DNA of 64,000 nt from Candidatus Thiovulum imperiosus (GTDB taxonomy: Bacteria > Campylobacterota > Campylobacteria > Campylobacterales > Thiovulaceae): NCBI GenBank assembly GCA_024281175.1, contig JAMJTW010000031.1, positions 84,100 through 148,099 of the forward strand, read 5' to 3'. The first letter of the stretch is position 1; every line of letters begins with the position of its first letter. The translations under genes were made by a program, and so were the position numbers. The notes beneath the pieces were generated by a model. It was not told where the DNA came from. It searched no databases and saw only the letters and a list, made by a program, of their open reading frames with translations. This document shows positions 2,369 through 57,508 of this stretch, piece by piece.

Positions 2369-2994
2369 TTTTTACTTATCTTCTTTGCAAGTTTGTAACA
2401 CGCTTCAAGAGAGGGTTCTGGTGGAACAACAGTTATAAATTCTGCTGGAACTGTTTTTGCAGTTGTTTCCCCGATGGAGACAAATTTAGTACTTTTTGGA
2501 ACAGTGTAATTTTGAAAAAAGCACTTTAAAGTTGATGGAGAAGTTGCAATTACAATAGAGTCTTCTGAAATTATCTCTCTACTTATCTTACATCTTGTCT
2601 CATATAAAATTTTATTGACAACAAAAATACCTCGAGTTTTTAACTCTCTACTCAAATCCAAAGCTACTCTTTTTGGACGAATATAGAGAAATCTCCTATC
2701 ATGAAACTCATTTAAAATTAGTTCAAGTACTGATTTGCTATCTCCTGAAGCCTCTTTTAAAATTGTGCCTCCAAATTTTCGAACCTCATCAGCACTCTTT
2801 TTTCCAACGACAATTGCGGGAATTCTTTTCCAGTTTCGATTTACTCTATTTAAACTCTGAACACCAACTTTAGAGGTAAAAATTAAAGTATCTATTCCAC
2901 TGAAAGAGACCTTTTTTGGTAACTGCTCTATCTCTATTGTAGGTAAGGGAATAGCATTTTCTACTATTTTAGGGGAAAGTGAATATATCTTCAT
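2365..2994 (-). CDS. hemD: Uroporphyrinogen-III synthase
   Basis: HemD closes hydroxymethylbilane to uroporphyrinogen III with inversion of ring D in haem and sirohaem synthesis. The 209 residues show the two-lobed layout of this weakly conserved family: FTSKVGVQSLNR near residue 40, VGKKSADEVRKFGG near residue 63, and the C-terminal-lobe VIATSPSTLKCFF followed by FVSIGETTAKTV. It stands alone and converges with the pseudopilin gene. Assignment rests on these signatures because overall identity within the family is low. Confidence 0.85.
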   Translation of the reverse strand: MKIYSLSPKIVENAIPLPTIEIEQLPKKVSFSGIDTLIFTSKVGVQSLNRVNRNWKRIPAIVVGKKSADEVRKFGGTILKEASGDSKSVLELILNEFHDRRFLYIRPKRVALDLSRELKTRGIFVVNKILYETRCKISREIISEDSIVIATSPSTLKCFFQNYTVPKSTKFVSIGETTAKTVPAEFITVVPPEPSLEACYKLAKKISKN

Positions 2995-3016
2995 ATTTTT
3001 ATTTTATCAGAAATGG

Positions 3017-3022
3017 TAGAAT
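3017..3022 (+). promoter_or_regulatory. -10 box for the hydro-lyase beta-subunit gene
   Basis: Extended -10 TGGTAGAAT, 19 bases before a TTG start that has an AAGGA Shine-Dalgarno. The divergent neighbour hemD begins at 2994. Confidence 0.45.
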
Positions 3023-3040
3023 GGTAGAAAAGGAATTTTA

Positions 3041-3598
3041 TTGAGTAGAACATATAACTTATCAACTCCACTCTCTTTAGAAGAAGTTAAAGAGTTAAAA
3101 GCTGGAGATATTGTAAATTTTACAGGAATAATATATACAGCAAGAGACGCCGCACATAAAAAACTTGTAGACCTCCTTGAAGCTGGAAAAGAGTTACCTT
3201 TTGAATTAGATGGTGCTGTTATCTATTTTGTTGGACCAACTCCACCAAAACCAGGTGAACCAATTGGTAGTGCTGGACCAACAACAAGTTATAGAATGGA
3301 TAGCTACTCTCCAACTCTAATTGCAAAAGGGTTAAGAGGAATGATTGGAAAAGGGCGACGAAACCAAGCTGTAAAAGATGCCTGTTCAGAATATGGTGCT
3401 ATCTATTTTGGTGCTACTGGTGGTGCAGGAGCTTTACTTGGCAAAAGAATTAAAAGTGCTGAAATAGTAGCTTATCCTGAACTTGGACCCGAAGCGATAA
3501 GAAAACTTGAAGTTGAAAATTTCCCTGTAACAGTAATCAATGATAGTTATGGTGCTGATTTATACCAACAAGGTAGAGAAGCCTACGAAGTAGTTTAG
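3041..3598 (+). CDS. Fe-S hydro-lyase beta subunit (class I fumarase / tartrate dehydratase type)
   Basis: The 185 residues match the beta (C-terminal, swivelling) subunit of two-subunit class I fumarate hydratases, with LKAGDIVNFTGIIYTARDAAH near residue 20, GPTTSYRMD near residue 85 and GKGRR near residue 111. The enzyme interconverts fumarate and malate in the TCA cycle. The alpha subunit, which carries the [4Fe-4S] cluster, is normally next door but is not in the window, so it must lie elsewhere. The start is TTG at 3041, chosen because AAGGA lies just upstream and no ATG fits. The stop sits inside a hairpin shared with the next gene. Confidence 0.88.
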   Translation: MSRTYNLSTPLSLEEVKELKAGDIVNFTGIIYTARDAAHKKLVDLLEAGKELPFELDGAVIYFVGPTPPKPGEPIGSAGPTTSYRMDSYSPTLIAKGLRGMIGKGRRNQAVKDACSEYGAIYFGATGGAGALLGKRIKSAEIVAYPELGPEAIRKLEVENFPVTVINDSYGADLYQQGREAYEVV

Positions 3599-3615
3599 AG
3601 GCAGAAGCCTCTAAA
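3594..3615. terminator. Bidirectional hairpin between convergent genes
   Basis: A perfect 9-bp stem TTTAGAGGC/GCCTCTAAA with a four-base loop. It contains the stop codons of both flanking genes. There is no U-tract, so termination efficiency is uncertain. Confidence 0.6.
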
Positions 3616-3856
3616 GAATATGAACCTCATATATGTAGTCATCTTCATCAAGTCCATATCTAACTTCTCGGAAATAGACGCTTTTATCAAACTCTTTGTC
3701 AAAGTGTTTAACAAGTTGGTTTAAAGACTTTTGACTATTTGTTCTATCAAAGTAGATAATAGCTTCTCCCTCGGAACTGGCTCTATTTTCAATCTCTTCG
3801 AGAGTTATTACTTCGGGGTTACTTTCTAAATCAACTCTTGCTAATTTCAATTTCAT
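3611..3856 (-). CDS. HP0268-like small protein
   Basis: An 81-residue acidic protein. From memory its length and pattern follow Helicobacter pylori HP0268: an MKL-LA start, an IIYFDRTNSQK strand in the middle and a FREVRYGLDEDDYIYEVHIL end. HP0268 has an Smr-like fold and reported nuclease activity in vitro; the physiological role is unknown. The family appears restricted to Campylobacterota, which supports the taxonomic assignment. It converges with the hydro-lyase gene through a shared hairpin and is divergent from nusA. Confidence 0.65.
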   Translation of the reverse strand: MKLKLARVDLESNPEVITLEEIENRASSEGEAIIYFDRTNSQKSLNQLVKHFDKEFDKSVYFREVRYGLDEDDYIYEVHIL

Positions 3857-3945
3857 TCAAATCCCTTTAACCATTTTTAAAAGAGCAAAAAATGTTCGAC
3901 TATTTTAACATTTTTTATATAAATAATGTCTAAAGGAAAATGTAG

Positions 3946-3951
3946 TAGAAT
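3946..3951 (+). promoter_or_regulatory. -10 box for nusA
   Basis: TAGAAT in the context TAGTAGAATGG, followed by AAAGGAGA at 3967-3974, which is the Shine-Dalgarno for the ATG at 3982. Confidence 0.45.
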
Positions 3952-3981
3952 GGTGGAAGTTCCGTGAAAGGAGAAAGAAAT

Positions 3982-5130
3982 ATGGAAGAGTTAGATATCG
4001 GTGCCATTATTAAAAAGATATCAGAAGATAAGGGTGTTGAAAGAGACAGAATTGAACTAGCTATCAAAAGTGCATTCATAAAAACAGCACGAGAAATTAT
4101 AAATGATAGAGCAAAGTTTGAGATAGATTTCTCAGATAATACAGCAACTGTTTATGAAGTTGTACCTGTTGTTTCAGACCAAAAGAAGTTTGGAGAGGGT
4201 ATAAAATTGTCAGAGGCGAAAGAGCGATTTCCAGATGAAGATATAAAAGTTGGAGATGAGCTTCAAATTCCTCACGATTTAAGTAAATTTGGAAGAAAAG
4301 GTTCTGAAGCTCTATATGCCTATATTGAAAAGAGTATTGAAGAGACAAAAGGAAACTCTCTCTATTTTAAATATAAAGATTTGATAGGTCAGAAAATTAA
4401 GGGTAGAGTTATCTTTATTGATAAGGAAGAGAACACAATTTTAGATATAGAGAATAGGGATATTCAAGCTATTATTAAAAGAAGAGATAGGATTAAGGGT
4501 GAAATACTTCGAATTGGTTCTGAAATTTCAGCAGCAATTAAATATGTGAAGATAGATAAATATGATAATAAAATTACTTTAGAGCTATCTCGAACAAACT
4601 TGAAGTTTCTTCAATCTCTTTTTGCAATATCTGTACCAGAGTTAGCTGACGGAGTTATCTCCATAGAGGGTAGTGCTAGAATTCCTGGAGAGAGAGCAAA
4701 AGTTGCTGTAAAGAGTTCAAATCCAAAAGTTGATGCAATCTCTGCAATGATAGGAACAAAGGGAGCTAGAATAAATTCTGTTTCTCGGGAGTTGAATGGA
4801 GAGATAATTGATATTATTGGCTATTCAGCAATTCCAGAGATATATATTAAAAATGCGTTATCTCCAGCAACAGTTGGAGCTATCAAAATTGGAGAGACTG
4901 AAACAGCAGAAGGTGAAAAACTTGAAACCGCTTATGTTATGATAAACAGAAGTGAAAGAGGAAAAGCTATTGGTAAATCTGGGATAAATCTCCGATTAGC
5001 AAAAATGCTTACAGGCTACGAAATCAGACTTCTCACAATTGATGATAAACAACAACCTTTCTCAGATGTTCCTAAAAAAGAGGAGAAAAACCTTTCTGCC
5101 GATGATGTTTTAGGTGCTTTATTTAAATAA
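3982..5130 (+). CDS. nusA: Transcription termination/antitermination factor NusA
   Basis: NusA binds RNA polymerase and nascent RNA to control pausing, termination and antitermination. The 382 residues contain the N-terminal polymerase-binding domain, an S1 domain (GQKIKGRVIFIDKEENTIL, about residues 133-150), KH1 with IGTKGARINSVSREL near residue 260 and KH2 with AIGKSGINLRLAKML near residue 330. As in other Campylobacterota there is no acidic-repeat extension. I place the start at the ATG 3982 rather than a GTG at 3964, because AAAGGAGA overlaps that GTG and is correctly spaced for the ATG. Confidence 0.95.
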   Translation: MEELDIGAIIKKISEDKGVERDRIELAIKSAFIKTAREIINDRAKFEIDFSDNTATVYEVVPVVSDQKKFGEGIKLSEAKERFPDEDIKVGDELQIPHDLSKFGRKGSEALYAYIEKSIEETKGNSLYFKYKDLIGQKIKGRVIFIDKEENTILDIENRDIQAIIKRRDRIKGEILRIGSEISAAIKYVKIDKYDNKITLELSRTNLKFLQSLFAISVPELADGVISIEGSARIPGERAKVAVKSSNPKVDAISAMIGTKGARINSVSRELNGEIIDIIGYSAIPEIYIKNALSPATVGAIKIGETETAEGEKLETAYVMINRSERGKAIGKSGINLRLAKMLTGYEIRLLTIDDKQQPFSDVPKKEEKNLSADDVLGALFK

Positions 5131-5155
5131 TAAAATTTGATACTTTAATTATCTC

Positions 5156-5225
5156 TGTCACCTCGACTAAAACGAAATGGAGAGGTTTTTTATTTCTCCA
5201 AATATATTCGTTTTGTCGAAATGAC
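5156..5225. repeat. REP-like palindromic element, copy 1
   Basis: A nested inverted repeat between nusA and the BatB-like gene. The outer arms read TGTCAcctCGAC and GTCGaaaTGAC, the middle arms ACGAA/TTCGT, and the inner arms GGAGA/TCTCC. The termini resemble those of the element at 50092-50186. Its right end touches an exact GATGAGGT octamer at 5226. It could also act as the nusA terminator, because the inner stem is followed by a T-rich loop. Confidence 0.6.
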
Positions 5226-5259
5226 GATGAGGTTTTCAAAATATTTGCAAGGAGTTAAA

Positions 5260-7071
5260 ATGGAGTTTTTATATCCGCAATTTTTTCTAATATTTTTTCC
5301 ACCTCTAATTTGGTTAGTCTACATTTTAGTTACAAAGAAGAGGGCAGAACAGGATATTTTTTCAAAAGAGGTTTTAAAGAAATTGACCTCATCAGTAGGA
5401 GGGTTTTCAACAAGAGTTAGAACTATTTTAGCTCTCATCTCTCTACTTCTTATGGTTGTTGCACTAGCAAGACCAGTAGAGAGTAGCGGTGAAATAGCTG
5501 TGGAGTCTACCAAAACAGATATAGTTATCGCTATTGATATTTCTAAATCGATGTTGGCAAAAGATATCTATCCAAACAGAATAGAGTTTGCAAAGTTGAA
5601 AATTCTTGAACTGTTACAGAAAATTGGAAAAAACAGAGTTGGAGTTGTAGCTTTTGCAAATAGCTCCTACACAGTTTCTCCATTAACTTTTGATAAAAGA
5701 GGTGTCTCATATCTTGTTAGAAATCTTGATAGTAAAAATATCTCTCAACAAGGGACTTCAATAAAAAACCTCATCAGCTCAGTAGACCTGTTTCTAAAAG
5801 AGAATAGAGATAGAGTTCTTTTAGTTTTGAGTGATGGTGGAGACTCTTTTGACTATTCAGAAGAGATTGAGATGGCAAAAGAGAGTGGATTGAAAATATT
5901 TGTTTTGGGAATTGGTACAGAACTTGGTGGACCAATTGAATTGGAAGATGGAACATATTTAGAAGATAGTGGAAAAATCGTTGTTACAAAGTTCAATTAT
6001 GCAATAAAAGATTTAGCATTTGATACAGATGGAGTTTTTGTTTCAAGTGTAAATTCAAATAGTGATGTTGAACTGCTTTTAAATGAGATAGAGAATTTAG
6101 AGAGTAGTGATAGTAAATCTGAAAATGTTCCACTCTATAAAGAGTATTTCATCTTTCCTTTAATTGCCTCTCTACTATTTCTATTTCCTGTTCTCTTTTC
6201 ACTACCAAGAATGAAATTTCTCTATATCTTGCCTCTTCTCTTTGTTCCAAAAGCGGAAGCTGGTTTACTAGATTGGTGGTATCTTGATAAAGCTGAAAAC
6301 TCTTTCAACTCTGGAAATTACCAAGAAGCCAGAGATTTCTGGAAAGAGGTTGATAATTCTGATGAGGTTAGCTTCAATATCGGAAATTCATACTATCGTG
6401 AAGGAAACTACTCTGAAGCAGTCCAAAATTATAAAACAGTTTCTGGAGATTTAAAGCAGAATGCCCTTTTTAACTCTGGAAACTCCTATGTAAAAATGGA
6501 AAAACTTTTACAAGCAAAAGAACTTTATGAAAAAGCCTTGGAACTTGGCGAAAAACCCAACATTCGTGAAAATCTTGAGTGGGTAAAAAGGCAACTTAAA
6601 AAAGAGAATCAAGATGAGAAGCAAAAAGATTCAAAAGAGAACTCCAATTCACAAGAAGAGAATCAAGAAGAAAATTCCAATTCACAAGAAGAGGATTCTG
6701 AAAAGAAGCAAGATTCTAAAGAAACTAAAGAATCAGAAAATGAATCAAAAGAGAAATCTGAAGAATCTGAAGAAGATTCCGAAAAAAAGGGAGATTCTGA
6801 AAATATAGATAGTAAAAAATCTGAAACTGGTGAAAAGTCTGAAGAGGAGAGAGAAGATGTTGTTCAAAAGAGAAGTGAAGGAGAAGTTGTAGAGGAGAGA
6901 GAAGTAAATGAGTCACAATTTGTGGAGATGGCTGGAGAGGAGATGTTAGAAAATGGAGAAAATAGAGAAGAGATGAAAATTTTTCAGATTCTAAATGAGA
7001 CTCAAGGAGGAACAAAAGTCTATTCAATTCCTATAAATAGGAGTAGAGAAGAGAACTTGAAACCTTGGTAA
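5260..7071 (+). CDS. BatB-BatC fusion: VWA-domain membrane protein with TPR tail
   Basis: The ATG at 5260 has AAGGAG at the right distance; an upstream ATG lies inside the palindromic element and is unlikely. The 603-residue protein has two N-terminal membrane helices, a VWA domain with the MIDAS motif DISKSMLAKD (about residue 93) and further helices near residues 300-340. The last of these ends in VPKAEA like a signal peptide. A TPR region (NSFNSGNYQEARDFW, NIGNSYYREGNYSEA, SGNSYVKMEKL) follows, then a Glu/Ser/Lys-rich tail. This joins BatB and BatC, which are usually separate genes in the Bat aerotolerance locus with a MoxR ATPase. No MoxR or other Bat gene is in the window. The role is probably envelope stress or complex assembly. 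Confidence 0.82.
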   Translation: MEFLYPQFFLIFFPPLIWLVYILVTKKRAEQDIFSKEVLKKLTSSVGGFSTRVRTILALISLLLMVVALARPVESSGEIAVESTKTDIVIAIDISKSMLAKDIYPNRIEFAKLKILELLQKIGKNRVGVVAFANSSYTVSPLTFDKRGVSYLVRNLDSKNISQQGTSIKNLISSVDLFLKENRDRVLLVLSDGGDSFDYSEEIEMAKESGLKIFVLGIGTELGGPIELEDGTYLEDSGKIVVTKFNYAIKDLAFDTDGVFVSSVNSNSDVELLLNEIENLESSDSKSENVPLYKEYFIFPLIASLLFLFPVLFSLPRMKFLYILPLLFVPKAEAGLLDWWYLDKAENSFNSGNYQEARDFWKEVDNSDEVSFNIGNSYYREGNYSEAVQNYKTVSGDLKQNALFNSGNSYVKMEKLLQAKELYEKALELGEKPNIRENLEWVKRQLKKENQDEKQKDSKENSNSQEENQEENSNSQEEDSEKKQDSKETKESENESKEKSEESEEDSEKKGDSENIDSKKSETGEKSEEEREDVVQKRSEGEVVEEREVNESQFVEMAGEEMLENGENREEMKIFQILNETQGGTKVYSIPINRSREENLKPW

Positions 7072-50203: not shown

Positions 50204-52813
50204 CTACTGCTCTATCACCATAAATTCTGGAGAAGTTGCAAGGTATCGAATTGCATCATTTACAATACTCTGTATTTTTGTGGTCTCTTTGTTGTTTGTA
50301 TAAGTCATAAGTACTTCTAATAGTTCTCTCTTATACTCTCTACTCAAAGTTCCTCCAAACATCTTATAATCCAAATACTCAACAACATGTTCTCGAAGCA
50401 CACCTTTCCCAAAGTTTCCAGTTTCGGTTTTGTGTCCTCTCTCTTCAGAATTTAAGTTTTCAAAAGTTCCATTTGTATCACCATCAAGAGATAGTTCTAT
50501 TGCATTGTAGATAGGTTCTAAATCCAAATATATATTTCTATTACTAGCTCTTGAAACCTCATTTTTATCAACCCACTCCTCCATTGTATTTGCCTCTTTT
50601 GGATTGTAGAGACGAAGTTTCAACATTCGATACTTTTCATAATTTAGAAGTGTAAAAAACATATTACTAAAATTTATAACATTGTTTGTATCTCGCAATT
50701 CAAGTTCTGGTGAGTAGATAGAGTTTGTAGCAAAATAGGTATCACTTGGAATATATTCTGGACTGTAAAAGTTGAAAACTGTTCCCGCATTTAAAGGCTT
50801 TTGGTCGTAAAAGAGAGAAGTTGGGTCGAACCAATATTCGTTGTAAATTTTTATCATCTCCGCATCTCGATTTGCAGTGTCATAAAAATAGAAATAGGGT
50901 AGAGGTTTTGCATTTAGAGCGTGTAAAAGGTGGGTCGTAGCCACAACAAACTCTTCAACTTTGCCAAAATTTGGAACTTTATACTCCCCTCTAGCTTCAG
51001 GGTCAAGAAGAATTGCTTTAACAACAGTACCTAAATCTCCCCGTTCTCCATCTCCATTGTCGTTGAAAACAGTAGCAATTCTCTCTATATATGCTGGAGT
51101 TGGATTTGATGTAACAAGTCTTGTGATAAGACTTCGACTGACATGAGGAGCTACATTCTGATTTGCAAAGATAATGTCTAAAGCTCTCTCTCTATCCTCT
51201 TCAGCACTCAAATTTGCCTCAATAGTCTCTCCAAGAACTACTTTTTCACCGTAATCATGAAACTCTTCTGTAAATTGGAGAGGTTTTAAATAGGAGTGAA
51301 CATAGTAGGAGTTTGAACCATATCTTGAACTTGCATATCCCTTATCACCTTTCACTAAAGAAGAGGGCAAGTCCCAACCTGTAAAGACTCGACTCAATTC
51401 TGAAACATCATCTTGAGTGTAACTTGGAATTGGATTTCCTCTACTATCAAGTTTTACTGTACCATTCAACTCCATCTCATAGAGTCCAATTGTAAAGAGT
51501 TGCATAAGTTCTCTGGCGTAATTCTCATCAGGTGTTACACCAGTTTCAGGGTCGCTCTTTTTTCCACCAATGAAAGTTAAAAAGTATCCCATTGCTGAAC
51601 TTTTGGAAATATCGCCGATGAGGTCTCGAAAATTTCCAAAAGAGTGTTTGACAAGAGTATCGTAGTATTGAGCAACAGCTTCAGCTCGGAAGTAAAGCCC
51701 ATTTCCAACAGTCGATTGTTGAGAAACTACAAGAAGTTGGCTTAATGCATAAGCGACTCTCTGTCGAAGTTGGTCGTCACTGTGAAGAAACTTCTTCCAG
51801 ATAATTGCATTGTTGAGAGCCTCTTTTCTCTCTTTATCCAGATACTCTTCCAAATTCTCAACAGGATTTGAGACAACCTCATCGGTATATTTTTCTGGAT
51901 AGCATCTTTGGAGAAACTCCATTGTAGATTGGAGATAACCATACCTATCATCACTTTCACTATCAGAGTCACTTGGTAGAGCCATCTGATACTCAATCCA
52001 CGCTTTGTAACCATTCTCCATGATATAGGAGATATTGCCCTCTTCTGCCACAAAACTAGCTTGTCGTAGAAGTTTATAAGCATCACTTCGTGTTATCTCA
52101 TCTGGAGTAGACCTCAAAATCACTTTCAAGCCATCTTTCTCAAAAACTGCTGAAATAGAACTATCTCCTGAAATATACCCATCTTCTATAAAACCTCTCT
52201 GGAGATGTGATAGTGTGAAATCACTCAAATTGACATCTTGAAGAGAGATATTTAGTTCTCCACTTTCAACTTCTCGAACAATTACAGAACACTCCTCCTC
52301 TTCAGCTGAAATCAAAATAGTCTCATTCTCTTCAGAATAGACCCAAAACCCCTCATTTCTACCTATCTCTTCTACCTCCTCTGGAAGTTTCCAACCATCT
52401 CTAAAAATCCAAACTCTCCTATCTCCAAAAGTACTATTCAAATCGATATCTTTTCCACTTCCAAGCAAATTCCAACCCTTTTGAAGATGTATTCTCTCTT
52501 CCTCATCTTTTCCATCAAATGGAATTGGAACTCTCTTTTTACTATAAACCCAAAATCCACTGTTTTCTGGCACTGTTTTAAACTTCTTGAAATTTCCAAC
52601 TCCAAAATCTTTAAAAAACATCGCTTCCCACTCACCATTCTGATATGTAAAAGCGAATTCGCTATCTTTGAGAAATTTGAAATCTCTCATTTTGCTACCA
52701 CTTCCAAGAAGCGTCCAACCGATATTCCCCTCTCTATACCCTCTTTTACAGCTGTCTGAAAACTCTAGTGAGTGTAGGGAAATTGTAAAGAGAAGTAAAA
52801 ATAGTAGTTTCAA
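50204..52813 (-). CDS. Exported DUF1800 protein with N-terminal GWNLLG modules
   Basis: An 869-residue secreted protein with signal MKLLFLLLFTISLHSLEF. Two N-terminal modules follow, NIGWTLLGSG near residue 30 and LQKGWNLLGSGKDI near residue 109; each continues with a W-x-F/x-DG-W stretch and a GFWVYS end. The DUF1800 domain starts near residue 285 (WKKFLHSDDQLRQRVAYALS; PDENYARELMQLFTIGLYEM; FTGWDL; LNAGTVFNFYSPEY). DUF1800 proteins normally accompany DUF1501 proteins; the partner here lies 3 kb away beyond two unrelated genes. Function is unknown; polymer or sulfatase-linked roles have been proposed for relatives. Confidence 0.85.
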   Translation of the reverse strand: MKLLFLLLFTISLHSLEFSDSCKRGYREGNIGWTLLGSGSKMRDFKFLKDSEFAFTYQNGEWEAMFFKDFGVGNFKKFKTVPENSGFWVYSKKRVPIPFDGKDEEERIHLQKGWNLLGSGKDIDLNSTFGDRRVWIFRDGWKLPEEVEEIGRNEGFWVYSEENETILISAEEEECSVIVREVESGELNISLQDVNLSDFTLSHLQRGFIEDGYISGDSSISAVFEKDGLKVILRSTPDEITRSDAYKLLRQASFVAEEGNISYIMENGYKAWIEYQMALPSDSDSESDDRYGYLQSTMEFLQRCYPEKYTDEVVSNPVENLEEYLDKERKEALNNAIIWKKFLHSDDQLRQRVAYALSQLLVVSQQSTVGNGLYFRAEAVAQYYDTLVKHSFGNFRDLIGDISKSSAMGYFLTFIGGKKSDPETGVTPDENYARELMQLFTIGLYEMELNGTVKLDSRGNPIPSYTQDDVSELSRVFTGWDLPSSLVKGDKGYASSRYGSNSYYVHSYLKPLQFTEEFHDYGEKVVLGETIEANLSAEEDRERALDIIFANQNVAPHVSRSLITRLVTSNPTPAYIERIATVFNDNGDGERGDLGTVVKAILLDPEARGEYKVPNFGKVEEFVVATTHLLHALNAKPLPYFYFYDTANRDAEMIKIYNEYWFDPTSLFYDQKPLNAGTVFNFYSPEYIPSDTYFATNSIYSPELELRDTNNVINFSNMFFTLLNYEKYRMLKLRLYNPKEANTMEEWVDKNEVSRASNRNIYLDLEPIYNAIELSLDGDTNGTFENLNSEERGHKTETGNFGKGVLREHVVEYLDYKMFGGTLSREYKRELLEVLMTYTNNKETTKIQSIVNDAIRYLATSPEFMVIEQ

Positions 52814-52845: not shown

Positions 52846-54138
52846 ATGGAAAAACAGGCAAAAAATTTAGAAGAGTTATATCAAATTTTTGACAATCAAG
52901 AGTACCTTGAAAAGGGAAGTCCTTTTTATGTAGATATTTTTGAGAAAGATATCAAAAAACTTAAAACAGCTATAAAATTGAACAGAAATCCAAAAAAGAA
53001 ATTTTTTGTTGCAGGACAGAGTGGAAGTGGAAAAACAACTTCTCTAAATTTTCTAATTGATGAAAAAATTGAGGATAAATATAGTGTGAAATTTATCAAA
53101 GGAAGGGACCTTTTTCTACTTAATGATGTCGATATTGTGGATATTCTTTTGATGACAGGATACAAACTAATTGAAGAGGAGGAAGAACTTCAAGCCGAAT
53201 TCTTTGAGAGTCTTGAAAAGGTTAGAAAGAAAAAGTTAGGAGCTTATGAAGAGACCGAAGAGAGAAGAGCAAAAGAGTCGAAAAGTGGAGAGGTTCAGGC
53301 AAAAGCTGGAGTTGGAACTTCACTACTCTCTCTTATAACTTTCAATTTAAATATGTTTGCAAAGTATAAAACAGATAAAACTTATAAAACTACTGTTAGA
53401 GAGATGTTTGCTCTAAATAGAAGAGAACTTGTTAAGGAAGTAAATGAACTTATTCAGAAATATAAAGAGAAGAAAAACAAGGAACTTTTACTCATTTTTG
53501 ATGATTTAGAAAAGATGAAAAAGTTAGACCAAATTGATGAACTTTTTATAGAGAATGGAGAACTTTTTGATGAGTTAAATTGTGTCAAAGTTTTGACAAT
53601 CCCAATCTATTTGACAACAAAAAACTCTATGTTTAATGATGATGTATTTAAATTTAGTTTTAGGATAGATAAGAGTCCTATCGATGTAAATGAGAGTGAT
53701 AAGAAGCCCGAAGAGAATAGAGAAAAACTTCGAGAAGTTATTTTTCAAAGAGCTGATAGAAATCTAATTGATGATGAGGTTATTGAAAAAGTTATTGAAT
53801 TTAGTGGTGGAAATTTGCGTCTGCTAATTCAACTTATTCAAAGAGCTTCACTTAGTGCAATTAGTTTAGATGATGAGGCTTCAAAAATTACACTTGAAGA
53901 TTTTGAAGAGGGTGTAAAAGACCTGCGAAACTCATATGCTACGGCAATTATTGATAGAGTTAATACTTTAAATTACATTCTTGAAAATAATAGGCTTTCT
54001 GATGAACAGGAAGATAAGCTGGATAAACTTAGAGAGTCTCTTCTCGATAATATGGCGTTTTTATACTTCAATGGAAATCCTTGGTATGATGTAAATCCTG
54101 TTATCAAAGATACGGTCAGAAAGTATAGTAAAAAATGA
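52846..54138 (+). CDS. STAND-like P-loop NTPase
   Basis: The 430-residue ATPase has Walker A GQSGSGKTT at residues 57-65, preceded by KKLKTAIKLNRN, and Walker B LLLIFDDLEKM near residue 218. A hydrophobic insertion AGVGTSLLSLITFNLNMF lies near residue 157, inside a charged helical region. A lid-like region (VIEFSGGNLRLLIQLIQRAS) and a winged-helix-like C terminus follow. This is the layout of STAND/KAP-like conflict NTPases. It shares the KLNRN segment with the next protein, which it overlaps by four bases. The pair is probably a sensor and ATPase in a stress or antiphage system. The family is inferred, not matched. Confidence 0.65.
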   Translation: MEKQAKNLEELYQIFDNQEYLEKGSPFYVDIFEKDIKKLKTAIKLNRNPKKKFFVAGQSGSGKTTSLNFLIDEKIEDKYSVKFIKGRDLFLLNDVDIVDILLMTGYKLIEEEEELQAEFFESLEKVRKKKLGAYEETEERRAKESKSGEVQAKAGVGTSLLSLITFNLNMFAKYKTDKTYKTTVREMFALNRRELVKEVNELIQKYKEKKNKELLLIFDDLEKMKKLDQIDELFIENGELFDELNCVKVLTIPIYLTTKNSMFNDDVFKFSFRIDKSPIDVNESDKKPEENREKLREVIFQRADRNLIDDEVIEKVIEFSGGNLRLLIQLIQRASLSAISLDDEASKITLEDFEEGVKDLRNSYATAIIDRVNTLNYILENNRLSDEQEDKLDKLRESLLDNMAFLYFNGNPWYDVNPVIKDTVRKYSKK

Positions 54139-55979
54139 CATCTCTTCTCTCTCCAAATGAACTACTTCAAATAAAGAAAATTAGAACTGCTATCAAATTG
54201 AATAGAAATAAGAATTTGATAATTGTTGGAGTAAATAGTTCTGAACTTGGAGATGCCTTTCAAGATTTTTTTAAAAGTGAAATAGAATTAGAAATTTGTA
54301 GAGAGTTCCAAACAGCTTCTCTTTTAAGTGATATTTTAGAAAAGGATTTAAAAAATTACTTTCTAATAGATTTGTACTCAAGAGATTTTTCAGGAAAAGA
54401 GAAAGAAGAGATAGCTCAAGATTTACTTTTCAATCGAGACTATATTCCAGAGAAGAATCTGAAATTGATTTTGGTTGTTGAAGAAAGTTTCTTGAATTAT
54501 CTGAAAAATAAAATCGCTGACTTTATCTCCTTTTCAAAAGCTACCTACTCTTTTAATTATCAGAAAATTGAGATAGGTGAAATTGATACTTCTGAACTTG
54601 ATGAAAAGATAGTAGAGTTTAAAGAATTTAGAAAAAATAATCCTAGTGCTAAAAATGAGATAGTAGTTTCAAAAATTATAAATGAGATAGTTCCCTTAGC
54701 TTTTCAATTTGGAGAGTATCAAATTGCTTTAAAATATCTAAATATTGCTTTAAAGAAATCCAAAAAAGATTTATATATGAAAGGTGTTGTTTTAAACAAC
54801 TTTGGAATTTTGTATGACAATAAAGGAGAATTGGATAAGGCTTTAGATTTTTACCAGAAATCTTTAGGAGTTTCAAAAAAGTTGAATAATAAATATGGAA
54901 TTGCTTCATCTTTAGGAAATATTGGAAAGATTTATGAACTCAAAGGAGAGTTAAAAAAAGCCTTAGATTTTTATCAAAAGTCCTTTAAGATTTTTAAAGA
55001 AATAAATAATAAAAATGGAATTTTTATATCTTTAGATAACATTGGAAATATTTATAGAAGTAAGGGAGAATTAGATAAAGCCTTAATCTTTTTTAAAGAG
55101 TCTCTTGAAATTGCAAAGGAGTTGAATGATAAAAATAGTATTTCTTCTTATTTAAATAATATTGGAATATTACATGATAATAAAGGAGAGTTAGATAAGG
55201 CCTTAAGTTTCTTTGAAGAAGCCCTTGTAATTGCAAAGGAATTGAATGATAAAAATAGTATTTCCTCTTCTTTAAATAATATTGGGAATATTTATCGCAA
55301 TAGGGGAGAATTCCAAAAAGCATTAGACTTTTATCAAAAGTCTTTAGAAATTTCACAAGAATTGAATGACAAATTTGGAATTGCATCTTCTTTGACAAGT
55401 ATTGGAAATATTTACAGTGAAAAAAAAGAGTTAAAAACAGCTTTAGATTTTTATGAAAAGTCTTTAAAATTTTATAAAAATCTAAAAAATAAAAGTGGAA
55501 TTGCTACTTCTTTTAATAATATTGCCAATGTTTATAGTAATAAAGGAGAATTTCAAAAAGCCTTAGATTTTTATCAAAAGTCCCTTAATTTGAGAATAGA
55601 ATTAAATTCTAAAACAGGTATATCTTCCTCTTTTACAAATATTGGTGTATTGTTTTTAGCTCATCATGAGTTCAATGAAGCTATGAATTTTTTCGAGAAA
55701 TCTTTAGAAATTTCAAAAGAGCTAGATGATAAAAATGGGATTGCCCTTGCTCTAAACAATATTGGAATTATTCATTTAGAAAAAAAAGATTTTAAAAAAG
55801 CTCTTAATTCCTTTGAAGAGTCTTTAAAAATATCTCAAGAATATGGATATAGTGGAAACCTCATCAACATTTATAATAATCTTTCAAAACTGTATAGAGA
55901 GACAGGAGAGTCTGAAAAGGCGAGAAGATATGAGAAGAAAGCAGAAGAACTTTCTGGAGTTATAAAAATAAAGGAGTGA
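54135..55979 (+). CDS. iSTAND-like domain fused to ten TPR units
   Basis: The 614-residue protein has an N-terminal domain (about residues 1-170) that starts IKKIRTAIKLNRNKNLIIVGVNS, like the neighbouring ATPase but with the Walker A loop lost. It continues with DLLFNRDYIPEKNLKLILVV and FLNYLKNKIADFISF, a pattern I associate with inactive STAND (iSTAND) domains. Ten near-regular 40-residue tetratricopeptide units follow from about residue 215 (for example NNIGNIYRNRGEFQKALDFY). The unit length fits the TPR_12 form. It is probably the recognition partner of the upstream NTPase. The repeats are alike at the base level, so length may vary between strains. Confidence 0.65.
   Translation: MTSLLSPNELLQIKKIRTAIKLNRNKNLIIVGVNSSELGDAFQDFFKSEIELEICREFQTASLLSDILEKDLKNYFLIDLYSRDFSGKEKEEIAQDLLFNRDYIPEKNLKLILVVEESFLNYLKNKIADFISFSKATYSFNYQKIEIGEIDTSELDEKIVEFKEFRKNNPSAKNEIVVSKIINEIVPLAFQFGEYQIALKYLNIALKKSKKDLYMKGVVLNNFGILYDNKGELDKALDFYQKSLGVSKKLNNKYGIASSLGNIGKIYELKGELKKALDFYQKSFKIFKEINNKNGIFISLDNIGNIYRSKGELDKALIFFKESLEIAKELNDKNSISSYLNNIGILHDNKGELDKALSFFEEALVIAKELNDKNSISSSLNNIGNIYRNRGEFQKALDFYQKSLEISQELNDKFGIASSLTSIGNIYSEKKELKTALDFYEKSLKFYKNLKNKSGIATSFNNIANVYSNKGEFQKALDFYQKSLNLRIELNSKTGISSSFTNIGVLFLAHHEFNEAMNFFEKSLEISKELDDKNGIALALNNIGIIHLEKKDFKKALNSFEESLKISQEYGYSGNLINIYNNLSKLYRETGESEKARRYEKKAEELSGVIKIKE
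54785..55900 (+). repeat. About ten 120-bp tandem units coding TPRs
   Basis: Repeated motifs such as GCCTTAGATTTTTATCAAAA recur every 120 bases. Units differ by point changes, so they are an older array than the 24-bp array at 35103. Confidence 0.8.
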
Positions 55980-55981
55980 AA

Positions 55982-57508
55982 ATGACAAGAAGAGAGTTTT
56001 TGAAAATGAGTGGTGCAATTCCACTTCTACTTTCGCTACCAAGCAAAGGGTTTGCTGAAGAGAGTTTTAGTGATTATAAAGCGATTGTAGTTCTAAATTT
56101 GGGTGGTGGAAATGATGCAATGAATATGTTCATTCCAACAGGAGAGACGCCATACACTGAGTATTCCAGAGTTCGGGGTGAATTGAAAGTAGAAATTGAA
56201 AACCTTTTTGAAGACCAATTTTATAGAACAGATGAGAATGGATATTTTGTTTCAAATGGTGGTGAGGAGCAACCCTATTTTACAACAGACCCAGAAGACT
56301 CTACGGATACAGCAACTCGAAGTGCGATGTATCGAAAAGGTTCTTATCATGTTGGTTCAGGAACTCAACAGCTTGGAATTCATGGACTTATGCCTGAACT
56401 TGCATCACTTTATGAGAAAGGAGTTCTCTCTATTGTTTCAAATGTTGGAACTCTTGTAAGACCAACAACAAAAGCAGAGATAGAAGATGGTAGTGCAGAA
56501 ATACCAGTTTTTCTTTTTGCTCACAATCACCAAGCTAGAGCTGTTGCTACGGCACAAGCAGAAACTTTAGGAAAGAGTGGTTGGGCTGGACGAATTGCCG
56601 ATAGCTGGAGAGTGAATGGAGATATTGGATTAAATATCTCATTTTTCAAAAGCCAACTTTTAATGATGGGAGTTGAAACTTCACATCTCTCAATGAAGCC
56701 AACAAAACTTACTTCTTATAGTGGAACAGGTGATTTTGGTGCAAGTCTCTCATCTTTCAGCTCTACTCTATCTTACAGAAACCATTTTCGTAGATTTTAC
56801 AACGAACTCAATATAAAAACTGGAAATCTCTCTTCAATTTTAGAGAGTGCATGGAGTGAAGCAGTGGACTTTTCAGATTTTTCAGCAAAAAACTCTTATG
56901 GAGAGAACCTTTTTACTATTTCTAACTATACAAAAACTTTAGGAATGTATACTCACCACGGTTTGAAAGAAGAACTTTTTCAACAGTTGGAAGCTACGGC
57001 AAAAATGGTAGAACTCTCTAAAAATAATTTGGGACATAAGAGACAAATCTTTTATGTAACTAGTAACGATTATGACTCTCACTCTGGACAAGTTAATGAA
57101 CATTCTCAAAATCTTAGAACTATTAGCTTAGGAATTTCTGATTTCTATAAAGCTCTTGAAGAGATGAATTTACATGAAGAAGTCATGGTGATACTCACTT
57201 CAGAATTTGGTCGAACTCTATACACAAATGGAGATGGTACAGACCATGGCTGGGGCGGTAACAGTTTTCTACTTTGTGGAGACCCAAATTTCAATGGAGG
57301 AAATATATTTGGAGAAGTGATGGAAGATTTTTCCCTCTACTCCTATACAGAAAAAGCTCGTATTATTCCAACAACTTCAATTGAACAGATGTTAGCTCCT
57401 GTTCTAAATTGGTTTGGAGTTGATGAGGTTCTTATGAGTAGTGTTCTTCCAAATCTACAAAATTTTGGTAGCGGAGAAGATGCTTTTCTTCAGGGAGTTT
57501 TTTCTTAA
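55982..57508 (+). CDS. DUF1501 protein with Tat signal
   Basis: The 508-residue protein starts MTRREFLKMSGAIPLLLSL, a twin-arginine export signal (RREFLK) with a hydrophobic stretch and an FA-EE cleavage region. The mature domain contains VVLNLGGGNDAMNMFIPTGE, WAGRIADSW, VMVILTSEFGRTLYTNGDG and TDHGWGGNSFLLCG, the alkaline-phosphatase-like DUF1501 signature. It is exported folded to the periplasm. ATG 55982 is selected by AAGGAG at 55971-55976; it follows the TPR gene by two bases. Its DUF1800 partner lies on the other side of the STAND pair. Confidence 0.9.
   Translation: MTRREFLKMSGAIPLLLSLPSKGFAEESFSDYKAIVVLNLGGGNDAMNMFIPTGETPYTEYSRVRGELKVEIENLFEDQFYRTDENGYFVSNGGEEQPYFTTDPEDSTDTATRSAMYRKGSYHVGSGTQQLGIHGLMPELASLYEKGVLSIVSNVGTLVRPTTKAEIEDGSAEIPVFLFAHNHQARAVATAQAETLGKSGWAGRIADSWRVNGDIGLNISFFKSQLLMMGVETSHLSMKPTKLTSYSGTGDFGASLSSFSSTLSYRNHFRRFYNELNIKTGNLSSILESAWSEAVDFSDFSAKNSYGENLFTISNYTKTLGMYTHHGLKEELFQQLEATAKMVELSKNNLGHKRQIFYVTSNDYDSHSGQVNEHSQNLRTISLGISDFYKALEEMNLHEEVMVILTSEFGRTLYTNGDGTDHGWGGNSFLLCGDPNFNGGNIFGEVMEDFSLYSYTEKARIIPTTSIEQMLAPVLNWFGVDEVLMSSVLPNLQNFGSGEDAFLQGVFS

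Follow-up and report, generated by a model that had tools for sequence, protein, structure and literature searches.

Avs and bNACHT combine a P-loop NTPase switch with a repeat sensor and TIR-type effectors, elements that recur in the gene pairs described here. A second, predicted arrangement is the nSTAND2 dyad, in which the effector resides on the inactive protein and is 'most commonly', although not absolutely, a GT4 or HEPN domain (PMC8195603). In the iSTAND ternary systems, a Walker-less domain is the proposed sensor of an NTPase-gated conflict logic (PMC7159879), and SoFic is an abortive-infection AMPylase (PMC12249575). We compared with these systems a gene pair found in a 64,000-nucleotide stretch of DNA, the whole of which is called the window below. 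The pair is probably a horizontally moving two-gene conflict module, likely directed against phages, in which one protein would serve as the sensor and its NTPase neighbour as the switch.

The two overlapping genes of the preliminary description are both present where it had placed them: in the window ORF list, an NTPase frame (52846-54138) and a partner frame (54135-55979) share 4 bp in the sequence ATGA. The features of the locus are the following.

50204 to 52813, minus strand: DUF1800 gene, left border, its start 32 bp away from that of the NTPase gene
52846 to 54138, plus strand: NTPase gene, 430 aa, an ATPase_2/AAA_16/KAP-like P-loop NTPase
53014 to 53037, plus strand: Walker A, GQSGSGKT, residues 57-64, with G57, G60, G62 and K63 invariant in 15 relatives
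53278 to 53385, plus strand: insert of the family preceding Walker B (residues 145-180 approximately), of variable length and without a domain match
53485 to 53514, plus strand: Walker B, LLLIFDDLEK, residues 214-223
53749 to 53820, plus strand: lid region containing the invariant R302 and also SGGNLR (R325), like lids of the ORC/RFC/TnsC/KAP type
54135 to 55979, plus strand: partner gene, 614 aa, a Walker-less N-domain followed by ten TPRs
54135 to 54689, plus strand: partner N-domain, about residues 1-185, with no Pfam match
54435 to 54437, plus strand: Arg101, invariant in the N-domain and an inferred candidate for an arginine finger in trans
54519 to 54521, plus strand: invariant Asp129 of the N-domain
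54771 to 55970, plus strand: ten 40-residue TPR units, residues 213-612, putative sensor array
55976 to 57508, plus strand: DUF1501 gene, right border, with an overlap (GTGA) between its listed start and the stop of the partner gene

The upstream protein is a P-loop NTPase, as had been claimed, with intact Walker A and Walker B motifs. Among the Pfam families, ATPase_2 matches it best (7.9e-8), at 32.8 bits just below the cutoff of 33.2; AAA_16 and AAA_22 match more weakly, and nSTAND_NTPase5 and NPHP3_N gave weak matches when STAND models were tested. The KAP_NTPase model is matched by 7 of 15 relatives (best 4.5e-9) and nSTAND_NTPase5 by 9 of the 15. The window NTPase itself reaches 13.4 bits with KAP_NTPase, below the cutoff of 20, and a related NTPase of Nostoc C057 passes that cutoff (34.4). 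Sensor repeats are absent from the NTPase polypeptide and are located on the partner instead. An AF2 model of the NTPase, built from a two-sequence alignment, was poor (pLDDT 44). Searches with domain models revealed no effector domain in either window protein, in agreement with the preliminary description, and among the PADLOC models nothing beyond generic TPRs was matched by either protein; DpdC and mad8, which the NTPase matched with E values of about 0.01, were taken as chance matches. The suggestion that an insertion around residue 157 might be the effector finds no support in the alignments, in which this insert is present in 7/7 Campylobacterota NTPases and, in a shorter form, in the cyanobacterial ones. 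Because it is found in all seven of the former, the segment resembles a structural insert of the family, and we rejected it as an effector.

The N-terminal part of the partner (about 185 residues) contains neither Walker motifs nor a match to a Pfam family. A homologous N-domain was found in 17/17 examples examined, 16 of them aligned and that of Acidisarcina recognised by inspection. Arg101 and Asp129 are its only invariant residues in the 16 aligned sequences, which suggests an arginine finger acting in trans; we infer this role because Arg101 is invariant and because the same proposal exists for the nSTAND2 dyads. The preliminary description had called this domain a relative of the NTPase and had given it the iSTAND label. 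When the two profiles were compared with hhalign, the probability was 1.3-1.8%, and 2 of 40 block-shuffled decoys scored equally high, so this comparison was rejected as proof of homology, even if the best match pairs the presumed Walker B strand of the partner with the Walker B strand of the NTPase. The iSTAND label is left without support on this account and because no MoxR or vWA gene adjoins the Campylobacterota pairs. The AF2 model of the N-domain (pLDDT 51, two-sequence alignment) was also poor, and the Foldseek result obtained with it (best E 0.2) was set aside for that reason. Since decoys match the hhalign score and the AlphaFold models are poor, an inactive P-loop fold is for this domain only possible. 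In a reverse search with the N-domain profile, full-length matches were confined to genomes carrying the NTPase-partner pair. The sole exception above background, a partial N-domain frame of 61 codons in G030 (L059:1483-1668), has no adjoining NTPase gene and looks like a relic; weak matches in G314, G338 and G360, which covered about 55 positions and scored about 20 bits, were deemed unreliable.

The C-terminal part of the partner holds exactly ten TPR units of 40 residues, the number counted in the preliminary description. The gene has the lowest GC content (0.262, z -2.8) among the 42 ORFs of the window. Within the G025 partner, the inner units are 72% identical to one another. Between the window and G025, which carry the closest homologues, units at the same position resemble one another (0.52) no better than randomly paired units do (0.51), so that the units turn over; the NTPases are 66% and the N-domains 56% identical. 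The homogenisation of the units fits a rapidly evolving recognition surface.

We then considered how the pair is distributed. The NTPase was found in 4/60 relatives and 3/397 genomes of the class, the window genome being counted in both; with a wider profile, G011 proved to have a third copy. Altogether, eight loci were collected from six Campylobacterota genomes (G000, G025, G039, G011 with three, G233 and G320). The NTPase gene lies directly 5' of the gene for an N-domain and TPR protein in all eight, one G011 contig terminating within the partner gene, and for this reason the pair is no chance adjacency. The genomic surroundings differ at every locus. The preliminary description had set a unit at variable positions against one always found at the same place with housekeeping genes, and the latter is excluded: the two genes stay together (8/8) and each pair occupies a different site. 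The chromosomal copies are found mostly among housekeeping genes (nif/dnaK, hydrogenase and lon, for example) and mostly outside defence islands. The pair is absent from G001, of the same genus, and from G002-G004, of the same family. Moreover, NTPase identity to the window copy is decoupled from that of PurF: it is 66% for G025 and 36% for G039, with PurF values of 70% and 69%. No relatives of the pair were detected in phage records and viral contigs. The pair is a real, rare and patchily distributed unit.

In the window, it lies between the DUF1800 and DUF1501 genes. In G038, G433 and G245, these two genes form a tandem separated by a few bp, and in other relatives they are close together. 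The window DUF1800 gene departs from this tandem order, being inverted with respect to DUF1501, and the insertion was thus more than a simple one. In G002, which belongs to a sister genus, the same gap is occupied by Septu (L027:2577-5127; PtuA 3e-45, PtuB 4e-42), and two different cassettes are thus found there within one bacterial family. A general hotspot was not upheld, a cassette being present there only in the two f1-family genomes whose DUF1501 genes are intact. DUF1501 was likewise rejected as a component of the system, because it adjoins DUF1800 in relatives without the pair. In G001, the region is a remnant (L021/L029, contig C47), in which DUF1800 is reduced to its first 29 codons, close to a piece of DUF1501 that is interrupted.

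Outside the phylum, plasmids of Acaryochloris, Calothrix, Nostoc and the acidobacterium Acidisarcina carry this NTPase, and the gene after it encodes a protein bearing the N-domain. The cyanobacterial partners have WD40 repeats in place of TPRs and, once, an nSTAND1 NTPase between the N-domain and the WD40 repeats. On the Acidisarcina polymorpha plasmid pACPOL1 (L039:7242-8888), the N-domain of the TPR protein lies in frame upstream of the annotated start, which appears to have been set about 220 codons too late, hiding the domain. The Acaryochloris 'Moss Beach' copy adjoins NB-ARC, TIR and TPR genes, and the one of MBIC10699 adjoins HicAB, a NACHT gene and integrases. The Nostoc C057 plasmid p057_J (L040:2087-7260) carries a SAV_2336 N-terminal domain fused to a related NTPase, with a MoxR-like ATPase adjoining and, downstream of the fusion, HEAT-repeat and formylglycine-generating-enzyme-like genes.

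Two effector fusions were found, a single Fic and a single TIR, both on the NTPase of relatives. In G011:C228, the N-terminal part of the NTPase is an intact Fic domain (Pfam 3.2e-18; PADLOC SoFic 2.9e-33), which is absent from the window pair. This domain contains the Fic motif HPFDDGNGRVVR and the inhibitory motif SSTIEG. An extra NTPase copy of Calothrix ends in a TIR domain (1.5e-33). On plasmid4 of Calothrix NIES-4101 (L033:6667-8760, 2615-6517), the NTPase-TIR fusion lies between the NTPase and the WD40 partner, and this partner has two N-domains in tandem. Both fused domains are effector types known from antiviral systems; they speak more strongly than any other finding for a conflict role, although they come from relatives and not from the window copy.

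The conflict-system reading of the preliminary description is partly retained, insofar as the pair is a unit that varies in position and is missing from close relatives, with Fic and TIR fusions in two relatives and Septu at the same site of a sister genus; the iSTAND label and the effector role of the insertion are not. According to the scenario we propose, the fast-changing repeat array of the partner (TPR here, WD40 elsewhere) would bind the trigger, and the N-domain would dock onto the NTPase. ATP binding and oligomerisation of the NTPase, possibly completed in trans by Arg101 of the partner, would then activate the output. In the relatives, this output would be the fused domain, either a TIR domain or a Fic AMPylase that contains an inhibitory motif of its own. 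Because the window copy has no visible effector domain, its output may be the NTPase or else a partner encoded elsewhere.

Other explanations share part of these observations. The pair might belong to the predicted nSTAND2 system, in which an active and an inactive STAND protein assemble into a mixed ring and the inactive one bears the effector (PMC8195603). The nSTAND2 genes likewise form a mobile operon of two genes, which encode an active NTPase and an eroded one; the window pair also joins a protein with intact Walker motifs to a Walker-less one, the top hhalign match aligns a strand of the partner with that of Walker B, and the NTPase profile weakly matches mS29 (E 0.02), of the Dap3 family named in the same paper (PMC8195603). 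We nevertheless regard this assignment as unlikely, since the similarity of the partner to the NTPase is within the decoy range, the Walker-less protein here bears TPR or WD40 repeats, and Fic and TIR are carried by the active NTPase and not, as are GT4 and HEPN, by the inactive protein.

It is more doubtful still that the pair is a non-immune switch, regulatory or chaperone-like (MalT-like signalling or protein quality control, for example), the patchiness of which would reflect repeated loss. An NTPase with TPRs is indeed a layout common to ordinary regulators, and the housekeeping surroundings of most chromosomal copies would suit such a role. No DNA-binding domain was detected, however, and sites that differ from genome to genome, decoupling from PurF, carriage on plasmids, the Fic and TIR fusions and the presence of Septu in the same gap of the sister genus all argue against it. 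We give least credence to a toxin-antitoxin-like pair, in which the NTPase would be the toxic output, by nucleotide depletion for example, and the TPR partner would restrain it. The tight ATGA coupling, the constant presence of two genes and a window copy devoid of a separate effector would agree with this idea, but the NTPase matches no nucleotide-hydrolase effector family, and the effectors known in relatives are enzymes distinct from the NTPase to which they are fused, which makes the latter switch-like. We consequently prefer the mobile conflict module with its sensor and its switch.

In a bolder version, which we put forward tentatively, the pair would represent a split NLR-like immune family that is undescribed in the open-licence literature and spans at least three phyla. 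Its NTPase, of the KAP/ATPase_2 type and with interchangeable effectors (Fic, TIR or none), would be licensed in trans by a separate sensor. The Walker-less N-domain of this sensor would provide an arginine finger, and recognition would be served by swapping and homogenising its C-terminal repeats (TPR, WD40). If this is true, an NLR-like switch and its sensor are divided over two proteins with modular outputs, and the trans-activation becomes accessible to a direct test on the two purified proteins and a single arginine mutant. The partner N-domain would then also define a family of sensor domains previously unannotated.

How does the pair compare with the systems known so far? The NTPase resembles the KAP family, whose model is matched by 7 of the 15 relatives examined, but the window protein falls below the cutoff. 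The Fic domain of G011 matches the SoFic model and retains the Fic motif, as in this single-gene Fic defence (PMC12249575); unlike SoFic, it is fused to, and presumably controlled by, an NTPase-sensor pair, the window copy of which lacks Fic. With the iSTAND ternary systems (PMC7159879), the pair shares a Walker-less domain as proposed sensor and the NTPase-gated logic, and the distant Nostoc C057 NTPase with SAV_2336-NTERM adjoining a MoxR-like ATPase is a further likeness; the pair has two components, however, and neither MoxR nor vWA was seen in the Campylobacterota neighbourhoods read. Its likeness to the nSTAND2 dyad (PMC8195603) lies in a mobile two-gene operon, an active and an apparently inactive NTPase and a predicted conflict role. 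It differs in the repeats of the Walker-less partner (TPR, WD40 or nSTAND1-WD40 instead of GT4 or HEPN), in the Fic and TIR domains that relatives carry on the active NTPase, and in a Walker-less domain whose homology is unproven. Finally, it differs from Avs and bNACHT in that switch and sensor are on two polypeptides and that the NTPase is of the ATPase_2/KAP-like group. Judged from its sequence and against the open-licence literature, the pair is most likely a new variant of the two-component STAND-type conflict systems.
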